Assembly: GCA_024278215.1 (NCBI GenBank)
Contig: JAJRTR010000080.1
Coordinates: 1-8,925, forward strand
Reading direction: 5' to 3'
Source of the DNA: a bacterium
Lineage (GTDB): Bacteria > UBP15 > UBA6099 > JAJRTR01
DNA length: 8,925 nt
Under the pieces are notes generated by a model. The model searched no databases. It saw only the letters and a program-made list of their open reading frames with translations, and was not told the origin of the DNA. The translations under genes and the position numbers were made by a program. Each line of letters opens with the position of its first letter. Within the stretch, counting starts at the first letter, position 1. Of this stretch, positions 4,164-8,922 are shown one piece after another.

Positions 4164-4196
4164 AAGGGCGGGAATCTTGATATAATTCCCGCCCTT
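4164..4196. terminator. Bidirectional intrinsic terminator
   Basis: A perfect 12-bp stem, AAGGGCGGGAAT (4164-4175) with ATTCCCGCCCTT (4185-4196), has a 9-nt loop. On the minus strand the stem is followed by TTTTATTATT; on the plus strand by a weaker T-rich run. It lies between two convergent genes, 35 bp after the sigma-factor stop and 24 bp past the DUF35 stop, and should end both transcripts. Confidence 0.88.
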
Positions 4197-4220: not shown

Positions 4221-4856
4221 TCAGAATGTGAAACCCGCCGGGAGTTTGCTCTTCGGTGTTCCCAGCGGCACCCAGCTCAGGTCTGTAATTGTGTAAGTCG
4301 GATTCTTCGTCCTGAAAATGGGGACCACTCTCATGCCGATCTCGGGTTCTCCGACCGACAGGTAGCTCATAAGGATTGTGCATACTCCGTCGAATTCTAT
4401 GTTGATGAACTTTATCGGCTTTTTGAGCGTGTTGAATGCGCCCGTTCGCTCCGTGATCATGAATGTATGCACTCTGGCGGTTTTCTTGACCAATCCCGTG
4501 AGAGTGACTTTCTTCATCTTGCTGAGGCAGTCGGGGCAATGGATGCGGTAAGGAAGATATATCGAGCCTTTGAACTCGCAGTCTGGATTAACACACTTTG
4601 TGCCGAGAAGCACGCCTTTAGCGAGCGCATCGAAAAAGGGAGCTTCGCCTCCATAAGAGTGCATGTATGTCATATCCCTGGGATTGGTAACACCACAGAG
4701 TTTTCCTTTTTCGTCGAATATCGGAGTATTCGGTATTGCGACATGAAAACTTCCGCTTGGAACATATTTGTCTTTTACGACTTTGACCGTTCCTCTTTTG
4801 ACAACCTTACCCGCAGTGTTTTTCTTCTTTGTGGTTTTCTTTTTTGCAACAGCCAT
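4221..4856 (-). CDS. DUF35 zinc-ribbon/OB-fold protein, thiolase partner
   Basis: A 211-residue protein of the DUF35 (rubredoxin-like zinc ribbon plus OB fold) family. The ribbon is at about 85-112, with Cys88-x4-Cys93 and Cys107-x2-Cys110. The OB fold follows from about 115 to 200. Family members bind a thiolase-fold partner and help position the acyl-CoA; known pairs are BbsA-BbsB, the ChsH2 DUF35 domain with Ltp2, and the archaeal HMG-CoA synthase complex. Residues 1-30 are an unusual Lys/Thr/Val-rich extension, and a further N-terminal part (31-75) precedes the ribbon. The gene follows the thiolase with a 1-bp overlap (TAATG). Its binding site GGAGG lies in the last thiolase codons, 9 nt before the ATG, so the two are translationally coupled. 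Family and partnership are well supported; the substrate is unknown. Confidence 0.87.
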   Translation of the reverse strand: MAVAKKKTTKKKNTAGKVVKRGTVKVVKDKYVPSGSFHVAIPNTPIFDEKGKLCGVTNPRDMTYMHSYGGEAPFFDALAKGVLLGTKCVNPDCEFKGSIYLPYRIHCPDCLSKMKKVTLTGLVKKTARVHTFMITERTGAFNTLKKPIKFINIEFDGVCTILMSYLSVGEPEIGMRVVPIFRTKNPTYTITDLSWVPLGTPKSKLPAGFTF

Positions 4857-6325
4857 TATTTCTTACCTCCCTTCCGTTTTGAAGAGGCTTTCTTTTTCTT
4901 CTTGCCGGATTTCTTCAGCAGGTGGTCGGGATCGACAAGTATCGTTGCAGTGACATGTGAGCCGACACCGGCATGGCTGATAGCCAGGGTGCGTTTGCAG
5001 TTCCTGACAGTAAGGTCCTGCCAGTCTTTAGGTTTCTTTTTGCCGTAAGCTTTCCAGCGTTTCGGGTCGCCGTGAATCTCGGCGTGTTTGTTCCATATAT
5101 GCAGAGCGCATTCGCTGATCTGCATGAGTCCGGTAGCGCCGACAGCGTGCATGCAGCCGATGAGACCGCCCGAGAGATTTGCGGGCAGCCTGCCGGGTTT
5201 GCCTGTATTGGGGTTGGTGTGGTAGCAGTCGCCCGACTCGACATAGTCACGGCCTTCGCCGTAGGGCCTGATGCCGATGTCTTCGTAGGTCTGGATGTCG
5301 CTGATTGTGAAAGCGTCGTGGAGCTCGACCATGTCGAGGTCTTCGCACGGGTCGGTGACGCCTGCCATGCCGTATGCGTAATATGCCGCCATGCGCGCCG
5401 CGAGGAATCCTGTGAAGCCTGGGTACCGGTCTCCGCCGGGGAATCTCTCGCCGAGGTCTTTGTACTGGGACGGTGTCTCGTTGGGCAGGAGCGGTATGTC
5501 CATATCGCGCCTGTCCGCGGGCCGCAGCGTGTGCGAGCCGGCACCGACATAAATGCGCAGGGGTTTGTCCGTCATTTTGCGGGCGGTCTTTTCGTCTGCA
5601 ACTATGCAGCATGATGCGCCTACGCTCATGAGGCAGCAGTCGAGCGCGCGGAGCGGATACGCGACAACGGGCGACTTCAGAACATCTTCCACCGTGATCT
5701 TCATCGGAGCCTGCGCGAACGGGTTGTAGCAGGCATAGCCGTGGTTCTTGACGGCGATCTCAGCCATTGTGCGCCTGAAAGAATCTTCGGATTTACCGAA
5801 CACCTGCCAGTATTTCTGGGCCATGACAGCGTAATATCCTGTATAGATGTGGCCGAGAGGTGTCTCCCAGTCCTTGTCGGCGGCACATGAGATCAGGTGA
5901 TTGCCTTCATCCGTGGGAACCTCATCCATTCGCTCCCAGCCCAGCGCGAGCGCACAGTCCGAGTAGCCGGACGCGACGGCTTTCACTGCTTCCCACATAG
6001 TCGAGCCGCCTGTGGCACCGCCTGTTTTCACGCCTATGTTCCCCAGCGGGTCGAGGCCAAGCCTGTCGTGTATGACAGATTCGCCGAGAAGCTGATCGCC
6101 GAAATGGTCTGCAAAATGACCGTAGTAACATGTGTGAATGTACCTTTTCAATTCCGCCGGCGACATGTCGATCAACTCGGCTGCCATCTGCATTGCATCC
6201 ACACACAATTCTTCCGTTCTCTTGTGCGGGAACGCGCGGCGAAATTCAGACTCGCCGACCGTGACGAGGTAGACCGGTCTGCTCATTTCCGGAATCTTGA
6301 GCTGTTCCTTACTGAACTTGATCAT
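4856..6325 (-). CDS. Thiolase-superfamily protein lacking the nucleophilic Cys
   Basis: A 489-residue thiolase-fold protein of the SCP2/archaeal type that pairs with DUF35 proteins. Recognisable parts are GGATGGSTMWEAVKAVASGY (102-121), the ELHDAFTISDI motif (334-344), NLSGGLIGCMHAVGATG (383-399, with His393 at the GHP histidine) and SHAGVG (450-455). At the position of the acyl-accepting cysteine (CASGG in relatives) it has Gly103, so the normal ping-pong thiolase reaction through an acyl-enzyme looks impossible. The precedent is Ltp2, a thiolase-fold retro-aldolase with a rebuilt active site that also needs a DUF35 partner. It is about 100 residues longer than typical thiolases, partly through insertions at about 265-305 and 355-380 and a Lys-rich tail (470-489). 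GGGAG lies 8 nt before the ATG. Acyl-CoA carbon-carbon lyase or aldolase activity is inference; the substrate cannot be named. Confidence 0.85.
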   Translation of the reverse strand: MIKFSKEQLKIPEMSRPVYLVTVGESEFRRAFPHKRTEELCVDAMQMAAELIDMSPAELKRYIHTCYYGHFADHFGDQLLGESVIHDRLGLDPLGNIGVKTGGATGGSTMWEAVKAVASGYSDCALALGWERMDEVPTDEGNHLISCAADKDWETPLGHIYTGYYAVMAQKYWQVFGKSEDSFRRTMAEIAVKNHGYACYNPFAQAPMKITVEDVLKSPVVAYPLRALDCCLMSVGASCCIVADEKTARKMTDKPLRIYVGAGSHTLRPADRRDMDIPLLPNETPSQYKDLGERFPGGDRYPGFTGFLAARMAAYYAYGMAGVTDPCEDLDMVELHDAFTISDIQTYEDIGIRPYGEGRDYVESGDCYHTNPNTGKPGRLPANLSGGLIGCMHAVGATGLMQISECALHIWNKHAEIHGDPKRWKAYGKKKPKDWQDLTVRNCKRTLAISHAGVGSHVTATILVDPDHLLKKSGKKKKKASSKRKGGKK

Positions 6326-6606: not shown

Positions 6607-8922
6607 ATGCGAAGGGTGATTGCAGTAATTACGGTCATTGCAGCGGCGGCTGCGTCGGGTTATGTCGCCCTGTGGATTCCTGTTGCCGCCGCGCCCGTTC
6701 TGTTGCTGCTTTTCTCCATTATTTCAGGGCCTCGGAAAGTGTCTGCGGAAAGTCTTACAGAGATAAAAACTATTCCATATAAAGATAACGCATCCGCCGG
6801 GCTCCGGCTCAACGGCAACTGGAATGTGTCGATACCCGGCAGCGGCAAGTATGAAATACCGCTACCATGCGACCTTGCGACAGTGAGGGGAATAGCTTCA
6901 GTCCGCAAACCACTCACCTTCAGCAGGAATGTTACAATCGAATCAATTGATGAAAAGCAGCGCGTTTTTTTATATGGATCCGGCGCGGGCGGCGAAGTCA
7001 CGGTTTATATAGACGGAACACAGACTGGCGAAATCGCGCCGGGCTTTCTCCCTTTCAGGATAGACATAACTGATGCTGTCGATGCAGGCGTTGAATTTCT
7101 TCTCAGTATAGATGTCGCAACTCCGAAAGAACATGACGCTCCCGGCAAACTCGATGGAATCGGGCCTCAATATGCTGTCGGAATTTTCAGGGAATTATTC
7201 ATCGAAACAGTTTATGCTGTCTCTCCTTGCAACGTATGGTTCGACAGGAAAACGGCGGGCTGCGAGCCGACCCTGTGTGTGGCGGTCGAAGGCGAAACCG
7301 ATTATCCGACTGCTGTGTCGGTCGCAATCAAGGATAAGAAAACAGGCAAAAACATTTTCAACGGAACGGAGATTGTACCGGGCATAGGGGGACGTTCCGT
7401 GATCACGTTCTTCTTAATTGATGCCGCGATCAAAGAATGGGATTCCAACGATCCGCAATTATACGATGTGAATGTTGCCCTGGTATGTGAGGACATCCGT
7501 GCTTCTACGGAATTTATTACAGGCTGCAAAACTTTCAGTTGTTCTTCGGGGAAGATGCAGATAAACGGAGAATCCCGAACACTTCGAGGTGTCTCACGCT
7601 ACGAACATTTTCCACCATACGGAGCGGCTGTACCGTCATGGGGAGCGGCAAAGGATGTCAGGTCGATTCTCGAACCCGGTTTCAATACAGTTTATTGCCC
7701 GGACTATCCGCCGCACCCAGCGTTCTGGAAAGCTTGCGACGAAGCAGGACTTCATGTAATAGCTGAATTTCCATACAGGCAGCTCGAGCGAACAGTGGGA
7801 AAAGAAAAAGCGCGCGCGATATTCAGACTCGAAACCGACAGGGCTGTCGCACATCCGTGTTTCCTGTTCTGGACGGTCGACGCACCTGCCGCACAGAAGC
7901 CGCTCCTTGATGATAACCACAGCGATAGAGTCTGCCGTCTTCATAAGGGACGGGCACACTCCGGTCATGCTGGAATGAACGCCGTAAAACTGAATGTGGA
8001 CATGTACACCCGCGGACACTTCAGGAAACAACTCGGCGAATTCGTTGATTCAGGAGCCGACCTCCTGATAATGGATTATATAGATACGGCGGCAGGCAGC
8101 GAGAGCCACGGAAACAGGGAATTGAGAAAAGCGAGCCATGATCTTGAAACCTTGAAGGCGGCGGACACGCAAGGGCTGAAGGCGCTTGTGCTCGGGCAGT
8201 TCTTCACCTGGGGGCTACGCTCGGGCGTATACTCGATAAACAGGAAAAAGAAAGCTTCAGCCGATTCGATAAAGAAATATTTTGAAAGCGGCATAGCGGC
8301 GGAAGTGACTACAGGCCGACACACTGTCTATCTCCCCAACAGGATCCCGATAGTTGTACTGTCCGCGTTGCTCGCCTGTCTTATCATCGTGCCTCAGGCA
8401 GGTAGTTTTTTTGCCAGGGGGCCGCATATAATGACCCTTTTTCTGCCCTGGTGGTACGCCGCGGCGGTCCAGTCTGTGGCCTGGCTGATTATGGCCCTGT
8501 GTATGACACTTTACTTTGAATGGCGGCGCAGATTGATCCCGGGCGCGGCCTGCATACTCGGCTACCCCCTTTTTCTAAGGCTCTACACAACGCATACATC
8601 CAGATCGGCGATAGCGCTCGCGATGTCGGTATGGCTCATAGTCATAGCGGCGGTTGTGGCCAATGCGGTTGCGGGCGGCAACCTTCTTCAGGATGCGCTC
8701 GTGCCTGTCATGCTCGCCTCGGTTTTCGATTGTCTTGCCGCTGTCTATTTGTTTGTTCCCGTCAGTCCGTATATATTGCTGGGCAGTTCATTTCTGCTTC
8801 AGTTTGCGTTTCTCTCATGGTTTTTCGGGCCGCTCGGCGCACTTGCGGCTGCATTTATCAAGAACGCCCCGTTCGCCGCACTATTCGCATGGCTGGATGC
8901 AAAAAATATTTTTTCTTCATGA
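6607..8922 (+). CDS. GH2-like membrane protein without catalytic residues
   Basis: A 771-residue protein built from an N-terminal hydrophobic region (about 4-40, one or two membrane passes), a GH2-type sugar-binding jelly roll (about 65-205, with LNGNWNV, VYIDG, FRIDIT and GIFRELFIE), an Ig-like domain (about 207-310), a GH2-type TIM barrel (about 314-560, with INGESRTLRGVSRYEHFP and FWKACDEAGLHVIAEF), and a C-terminal domain (about 578-765) with some six membrane segments. The barrel lacks the expected active site: where GH2 enzymes have W-S-L-G-N-E, with the acid/base Glu, it has FWTVDAP (421-427); the SHYP histidine is Asp366 (CPDYP); and no nucleophile Glu is evident before GQFFTWG (530-536). 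Hydrolysis is therefore unlikely, and binding or scaffolding of glycans at the membrane is the better guess. An in-frame TAA at 6562-6564 bounds the start; the ribosome binding site (TGGA) is weak. The gene is complete, ending 3 bases before the window does. Confidence 0.75.
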   Translation: MRRVIAVITVIAAAAASGYVALWIPVAAAPVLLLLFSIISGPRKVSAESLTEIKTIPYKDNASAGLRLNGNWNVSIPGSGKYEIPLPCDLATVRGIASVRKPLTFSRNVTIESIDEKQRVFLYGSGAGGEVTVYIDGTQTGEIAPGFLPFRIDITDAVDAGVEFLLSIDVATPKEHDAPGKLDGIGPQYAVGIFRELFIETVYAVSPCNVWFDRKTAGCEPTLCVAVEGETDYPTAVSVAIKDKKTGKNIFNGTEIVPGIGGRSVITFFLIDAAIKEWDSNDPQLYDVNVALVCEDIRASTEFITGCKTFSCSSGKMQINGESRTLRGVSRYEHFPPYGAAVPSWGAAKDVRSILEPGFNTVYCPDYPPHPAFWKACDEAGLHVIAEFPYRQLERTVGKEKARAIFRLETDRAVAHPCFLFWTVDAPAAQKPLLDDNHSDRVCRLHKGRAHSGHAGMNAVKLNVDMYTRGHFRKQLGEFVDSGADLLIMDYIDTAAGSESHGNRELRKASHDLETLKAADTQGLKALVLGQFFTWGLRSGVYSINRKKKASADSIKKYFESGIAAEVTTGRHTVYLPNRIPIVVLSALLACLIIVPQAGSFFARGPHIMTLFLPWWYAAAVQSVAWLIMALCMTLYFEWRRRLIPGAACILGYPLFLRLYTTHTSRSAIALAMSVWLIVIAAVVANAVAGGNLLQDALVPVMLASVFDCLAAVYLFVPVSPYILLGSSFLLQFAFLSWFFGPLGALAAAFIKNAPFAALFAWLDAKNIFSS

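Follow-up and report, generated by a model that had tools for sequence, protein, structure and literature searches.

The window, i.e., the whole stretch of 8,925 nucleotides that was analyzed, carries on its minus strand two overlapping genes for a protein of 489 amino acids with a predicted thiolase fold and a DUF35 protein of 211 amino acids. The genes and the sites discussed below are located as follows.

4856..6325, minus strand: Cys-less protein of 489 amino acids with predicted thiolase fold, family NCBIfam NF004982/PRK06365
6017..6019, minus strand: codon of Gly103, which replaces the nucleophilic Cys (Gly in 82/82 sequences)
5417..5503, minus strand: conserved family-specific insert, residues about 275-303 (alignments)
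5318..5320, minus strand: His336 of ELHDAF, where the catalytic Tyr of Ltp2 and Sal stands (His in 82/82)
5147..5149, minus strand: His393 of MHAVGATG, counterpart of the GHPxGATG His of thiolases (His in 81/82)
4973..4975, minus strand: His451 of SHAGVGS; the column is Asn (HNxGG) in the Cys-bearing relatives of the branch
4854..4858, minus strand: TAATG, overlap of the thiolase-gene stop and the DUF35-gene start
4221..4856, minus strand: DUF35 partner of 211 amino acids with zinc ribbon and OB fold (conservation, Pfam matches of homologs, model)
4527..4595, minus strand: predicted zinc ribbon of the DUF35 protein with Cys88, Cys93, Cys107, and Cys110 (conserved Cys)
4164..4196, minus strand: hairpin resembling a terminator, downstream of the DUF35 gene; it is likewise a perfect inverted repeat

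The window flanks (a sigma factor and a GH2-like protein) give no functional hint, and no leucine-pathway genes are located beside the pair in the window itself. The protein of 771 amino acids at positions 6607-8922 has a glycosyl hydrolase family 2-like middle part and a hydrophobic C-terminal third, the latter of which looks membrane-bound. Another protein, of 596 amino acids (positions 339-2126), has a signal-like N-terminus and by eye resembles outer-membrane LptD/OstA-type proteins; Pfam and NCBIfam searches returned no match for it.

The thiolase-fold protein and its DUF35 partner

The AlphaFold model of the 489-residue protein (single chain, ligand-free; mean pLDDT of 88.2, pTM of 0.91) predicts the fold of the thiolase class, with a Lys-rich tail that lacks confident structure. 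Among solved structures, it is closest to 6et9, an archaeal acetoacetyl-CoA thiolase (Z 50.3, rmsd 1.9 over 384, 30% identity); other near structures are ST0096, PFC_04095, and BbsB (Z 46.8, rmsd 2.1 over 373); the corresponding values are Z 41.9 and rmsd 2.4 over 361 for Ltp2 (6ok1) and Z 40.5 and rmsd 2.8 over 372 for Sal (9myr). The protein matches NF004982/PRK06365, a family that is merely labeled "thiolase domain-containing protein," over its full length (positions 1-429 of 430) with 685.7 bits, thus missing the curated cut-off of 695 by 9 bits, and several orthologs score above this cut-off (up to 711.6 bits). Close homologs (n = 80; 74-86% identical) are hosted by Deltaproteobacteria/Desulfobacterota, Spirochaetes, Krumholzibacteriota, Latescibacterota, Marinimicrobia (Fidelibacterota), Phycisphaerae, Actinobacteria, and Lokiarchaeota. 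A plasmid search retrieved distant relatives only, all under 60%. On a Rhodococcus plasmid (L157, 2483-3993), a Cys-less thiolase gene (GGTTGG) that forms a long branch in the tree adjoins a DUF35 (OB-fold) gene. No account of the family was found in the open-access literature on PRK06365, on HMG-CoA lyase together with DUF35, or on 3-hydroxyisovaleryl-CoA (3-hydroxy-3-methylbutyryl-CoA) in combination with acetone.

The smaller protein has the predicted four-Cys zinc ribbon followed by an OB fold that defines DUF35 proteins. The Pfam models zf-ChsH2 and OB_ChsH2_C are matched by 19 and 15 of its 44 homologs, respectively; the copy in the window is without any Pfam match. The best match of its structural model is the DUF35 protein of Sal-Shy (Z 12.8, rmsd 3.1 over 133). 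Together with it, the top matches comprise the DUF35 subunits that accompany Ltp2, archaeal thiolase, PhlABC, and BbsAB as well as two free Sulfolobus DUF35 proteins (Z 12.8 to 8.8, compared with at most 5.1 for other folds). The pairing of both proteins, already proposed in a preliminary description of this DNA, recurs throughout the family, since the two genes are adjacent in 78 of 80 loci (54 recognized by an automatic distance rule and 24 more from listed coordinates); the exceptions are one contig end and one locus without a DUF35 match.

Active-site motifs and phylogenetic position

The preliminary description had placed Gly103 at the position of the nucleophilic Cys of thiolases. Phmmer alignments to four structures (7yvy, 6esq, BbsB 7pxp, and SCP2 6hsj) confirm this placement, because Gly103, the second Gly of VKTGGATGG, falls on the Cys of CASGG, and the alignments are ungapped there; in the AlphaFold model, the helix that begins at the nucleophile site starts at residue 102. 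The CASGG-type Cys with which the N-domain helix of thiolases begins is accordingly replaced by Gly in all 82 aligned sequences, in which Gly102-Ser108 are invariant, as are 201 columns overall. No substitute Cys is present at this site in any of the 82 sequences. The conserved Cys residues are all located elsewhere, i.e., Cys231 (82/82), which aligns with a Cys common to BbsB and Ltp2, and Cys124 and Cys239 (81/82 each). A displaced Cys is rejected by the conservation of Gly103 and the off-site location of the conserved Cys residues, and decay is likewise rejected, because Gly103 and His336 are invariant among the homologs.

The family is characterized by the motifs KTGGATGG, ELHDAF, GCMHAVGATG, and SHAGVGSH, which stand against CASG, HDxF, GHPxGAT, and HNxGG in Cys-bearing relatives. 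The nucleophile is thus lost, whereas the histidines of HDxF and GHxxG, which the preliminary description had reported as intact, are retained (His336 in 82/82 and His393 in 81/82 sequences), and His451 takes the place of Asn. In classical thiolases, this column presumably holds the second Cys, and His451 is proposed to serve as a general acid/base. With 489 residues versus 388-392 in the closest solved relatives, the protein does carry the roughly 100 extra residues noted at the outset. They include the insert at about 275-303 with its invariant PLLP and YPGF runs, a longer segment at 365-381, added residues around 411-444, and the Lys-rich tail. The extra segments are conserved, and they may, as the preliminary description suggested, supply a new active site.

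A maximum-likelihood tree of 50 rows resolves the family as a distinct clade (support of 100/100, stem of 1.09 changes per column) that nests among Cys-less Asgard and bacterial rows. The Ltp2/Sal set is separate with 100/100 support, and the Cys-bearing SCP2, BbsB, and archaeal thiolases likewise stand apart. The deepest joins have a support of about 90 and long branches, and a single origin of the Cys-less side of the tree is tentative. Since the distant Asgard homologs (L133-L145, L147, and L148) are also Cys-less and also have SHAG, the loss of the Cys predates the family. The intermingling of phyla within the family suggests lateral transfer. According to the tree and the 82-sequence alignment, the family is thus a clade of its own that lacks the Cys but conserves polar residues where the classical catalytic residues stand, which is the outcome that the preliminary description had named as supportive of a new activity. 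Its proposal of a new carbon-carbon bond enzyme in the manner of Ltp2 stands in part: the Cys-less clade and the DUF35 partner make such an enzyme likely, but descent from or identity with Ltp2 is not upheld, because the Tyr of Ltp2 and Sal is His336 here and both proteins group elsewhere in the tree.

Among the known systems, Ltp2-ChsH2 and Sal-Shy (6ok1 and 9myr) share with the family the thiolase fold, the missing nucleophilic Cys (Gly in Sal), and the DUF35 partner. They differ in their steroid context, their separate clade, and the fusion of DUF35 to a MaoC hydratase, whereas DUF35 is free-standing in the family. Sal, with Gly at the nucleophile site, cleaves a 3-hydroxyacyl-CoA; the retro-aldol reaction of both systems on such substrates is proposed for the family as well, and Ltp2 (YDHF) and Sal (YDCY) carry a catalytic Tyr (PMC12329534). 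The mechanism may be like that of Ltp2 by analogy. The Tyr of the YDxF/Y motif is represented by His336 of HDAF in all 82 sequences, and orthology with Ltp2/Sal was rejected on the basis of this motif and the tree, for which a genuine Ltp2 from Nocardia (L161; 608 bits to 6ok1) served as the reference. The archaeal acetoacetyl-CoA thiolase/DUF35/HMG-CoA synthase complex of Methanothermococcus (6esq/6et9) has the closest fold, a DUF35 partner, the His of HxxGATG, and a role in acetoacetyl-CoA/HMG-CoA metabolism in common with the family, but its thiolase has a CASGS nucleophile, HDCF, no 275-303 insert, and thiolytic or condensing chemistry. Similarly, the benzoylsuccinyl-CoA thiolase BbsAB (7pxp) has a separate DUF35 subunit and an identical ELHDAFTI in the alignment, but it keeps the Cys (SACSAG), catalyzes thiolysis, and belongs to a different clade. 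HMG-CoA lyase (HMGCL, NF004283) shares the proposed reaction and the same syntenic slot in Fidelibacterota without any sequence relation; it belongs to the unrelated HMGL-like TIM-barrel family, for which Pfam and NCBIfam profile searches gave no match to the window protein.

Other Cys-less thiolase-like proteins occur in tandem pairs in the genome of the window (contigs C199, C140, and C43, i.e., L003, L004 and L006, and L007 and L008); one subunit has GGTTG with YDPSSW and the other has MDG(I/V) for the Cys motif. Three Fidelibacterota genomes encode a diverged sister form (L187, L200, and L202; HDAY, SHAGTGT; 38-39% identical) in the vicinity of PPIase and AccA-YbgC genes, and one Asgard genome has a counterpart of it (L133).

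Gene neighborhoods and exchange with leucine-pathway genes

In many loci of relatives, the pair is preceded by a regulator that combines HTH and cupin-like domains, and acetoacetate-CoA ligase (about 14 loci), acyl-CoA dehydrogenases, acyl-CoA ligases, and enoyl-CoA hydratases are found downstream or nearby; some loci add BKACE, a CoA transferase, an aldehyde ferredoxin oxidoreductase, or a canonical thiolase. The operon of Desulfocapsaceae has the order regulator, pair, acyl-CoA ligase, acetoacetate-CoA ligase, and isovaleryl-CoA dehydrogenase (IVD). The acetoacetate-CoA ligase of this operon in L024 scores 917.8 bits and that of the locus L029 scores 920.7 bits at a cut-off of 520.9, and the dehydrogenase of L024 is assigned to IVD by 600 bits to 4o5m versus 324 for the next class, the IVD-type Glu, and the GAGTSE motif, a signature that recurs in L027, L036, L038, L044, L047, and L073. 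The pair is placed between isovaleryl-CoA dehydrogenase/hydratase and acetoacetate-CoA ligase, where the canonical HMG-CoA lyase acts. Observations that count against a role in leucine breakdown include the SCAD-like (non-IVD) acyl-CoA dehydrogenase beside the pair in 24 loci and the complete canonical leucine operon with HMGCL that Desulfopila aestuarii has in addition to the operon of the pair.

In Fidelibacterota, the common gene order is UDG - QOR - PPIase - ECH - X - EamA - MT - YbgC - AccA, as named by sequence likeness and partly by eye. The position X is occupied by HMG-CoA lyase and MCC beta in L164, L165, L166, L212, L213, L218, L220-L222, and others, by the pair in L088 and L203, and by the pair without ECH in L201; with partial flanks, the pair is also in this slot in L076, L070/L169, L078, L081, and L173. 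The ECH hydratases of both types are orthologous (53-60%) and LiuC-like and belong to the NF005675 family, which also includes the Desulfopila hydratase encoded in the canonical leucine operon. The thiolase-fold gene is present in 42 of 199 Fidelibacterota genomes, three of which have the sister form. According to uncorrected Fisher tests, which ignore shared ancestry and lifestyle, acetoacetate-CoA ligase is found in 39/42 Fidelibacterota genomes with the gene versus 66/157 without it (p 6e-10), MCC beta orthologs (at least 60% identity) in 0/42 versus 33/157 (p 3e-4), HMGCL among the ligase-positive genomes in 3/39 versus 30/66 (p 3e-5), and the ligase among 119 Asgard genomes in 11/14 versus 19/105 (p 1e-5). 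In the 46 genomes chosen as carriers or close kin of carriers, the ligase is over the cut-off in 32 and HMGCL in 4; in the genome that contains the window, the ligase is present (938.8 bits) and no HMGCL reaches the cut-off. The HMGCL of genome G010 (about 310 bits) was dismissed as a counter-example, as it lies outside a leucine operon beside LeuC/LeuD-like and hydantoinase-like genes (by eye).

In one Marinimicrobia genome (L230, 4885-16315), an HMGCL-like gene has neighbors that by eye resemble LeuC/LeuD and hydantoinase A/B genes, apparently as part of another aldolase pathway. In Lokiarchaeota, the pair is followed by a glycyl radical enzyme (L053, 2748-5144; L055, 8259-10652; L063, 8362-10758; TIGR01774, 751 bits for L055), and these loci also have an acyl-CoA-dehydrogenase-like gene and a Ras-like GTPase. 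A spirochaete locus (L083, 409-10091) combines the pair with an AMP ligase, BKACE, two CoA-transferase subunits, a metallo-beta-lactamase-fold protein, and an aldehyde ferredoxin oxidoreductase.

Proposed reaction and alternative explanations

The probable role of the pair is that of a novel carbon-carbon lyase in leucine breakdown. We give a retro-aldol lyase of leucine/isovalerate catabolism about an even chance of being correct, with HMG-CoA somewhat ahead of 3-hydroxyisovaleryl-CoA as the substrate. We infer the activity from the conservation of Gly103 and the histidines, the predicted fold, the separate clade, the adjacent gene for a DUF35 partner, the genomic neighborhoods, and the exchange with HMGCL/MCC beta. 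The 3-methyl branch leads to a tertiary 3-hydroxyacyl-CoA that cannot be oxidized at C3, and a retro-aldol lyase is therefore needed; Ltp2 cleaves a comparable tertiary alcohol in steroids. The thiolase-fold subunit and the DUF35 partner would act as a heteromeric, non-thiolytic lyase that binds the tertiary 3-hydroxyacyl-CoA supplied by acyl-CoA dehydrogenase and hydratase. Without Cys acylation, cleavage would be a non-covalent retro-aldol reaction, in which His336, His393, and His451 may hold the thioester oxygen and shuttle protons, and acetyl-CoA and a ketone would be released. In the preferred version, which is based on the acetoacetate-CoA ligase and the LiuC-like hydratase, HMG-CoA would be split into acetyl-CoA and acetoacetate, and the ligase would then reactivate acetoacetate. 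Alternatively, 3-hydroxyisovaleryl-CoA would yield acetyl-CoA and acetone, a variant favored by the fact that the pair of Fidelibacterota replaces MCC beta too, leaving HMG-CoA without an evident source. A biotin-free route of this kind, in which the hydratase makes 3-hydroxyisovaleryl-CoA from 3-methylcrotonyl-CoA and the pair substitutes for methylcrotonyl-CoA carboxylase plus HMG-CoA lyase, is rather unlikely, but it would explain the lack of MCC beta in all 42 Fidelibacterota genomes with the pair. A dedicated acetone carboxylase adjoining the pair was not recognized.

The SCAD-like dehydrogenase, which is 60-76% identical to that of L009 and neighbors the pair in those 24 loci from several phyla, would fit a retro-aldol or aldol enzyme of another pathway that acts with this dehydrogenase and a hydratase on a different 3-hydroxyacyl-CoA to give an aldehyde or ketone, the leucine link being secondary. 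The aldehyde ferredoxin oxidoreductase (L083 and L011), BKACE (Lokiarchaeota and L083), and glycyl radical enzyme (L055) of some loci point in the same direction. We nevertheless regard such a role as doubtful, since the Desulfocapsaceae operons encode IVD and the pair exchanges with HMGCL-MCC beta, both of which indicate one pathway, and a single reaction is expected of an enzyme that is nearly 80% identical across contexts. Operation in the condensing direction, e.g., as a synthase of HMG-CoA or 3-hydroxyisovaleryl-CoA towards isovaleryl-CoA/isoprenoids that is fed by acetoacetate-CoA ligase, would agree with the nearest fold, which is that of the acetoacetyl-CoA thiolase in the archaeal thiolase/HMG-CoA synthase/DUF35 complex, and synthesis could use both the ligase and the dehydrogenase. 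HMG-CoA synthases and thiolases, however, require an acyl-Cys, which the family lacks, and the genes replaced by the pair in Fidelibacterota (HMGCL and MCC beta) are catabolic, so that a synthase is improbable.

Decarboxylating ketosynthases have His positions that resemble those of the family, and its histidines might accordingly decarboxylate a 3-keto or malonyl-type CoA ester, as in Cys-less ketosynthase domains. A precedent is TbSLP, which likewise lacks the SCP2-thiolase cysteines and for which very weak malonyl-CoA decarboxylation is quoted in PMC12329534. Considering that Sal shows no decarboxylase activity of this kind (PMC12329534) and that the neighborhood of the pair offers a hydratase and a ligase that handles acetoacetate but no source of malonyl-type substrates, this function is quite improbable. 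The loss of the nucleophile by itself would also permit a non-catalytic or regulatory subunit or a decayed thiolase, but the 201 invariant columns, the nearly invariant active-site histidines, and an identity of about 80% across phyla and domains make this highly improbable.

If the proposed lyase reaction is correct, the thiolase fold would have been recruited as a non-covalent carbon-carbon lyase beyond steroid breakdown, in a small-molecule pathway common to many lineages of bacteria and to Asgard archaea. The enzyme would close the apparent gap in leucine/isovalerate catabolism of genomes without methylcrotonyl-CoA carboxylase or HMG-CoA lyase and would provide a compact enzyme for acetone/acetoacetate chemistry. 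A large family that has so far been named only "thiolase domain-containing protein" would thereby obtain a function.
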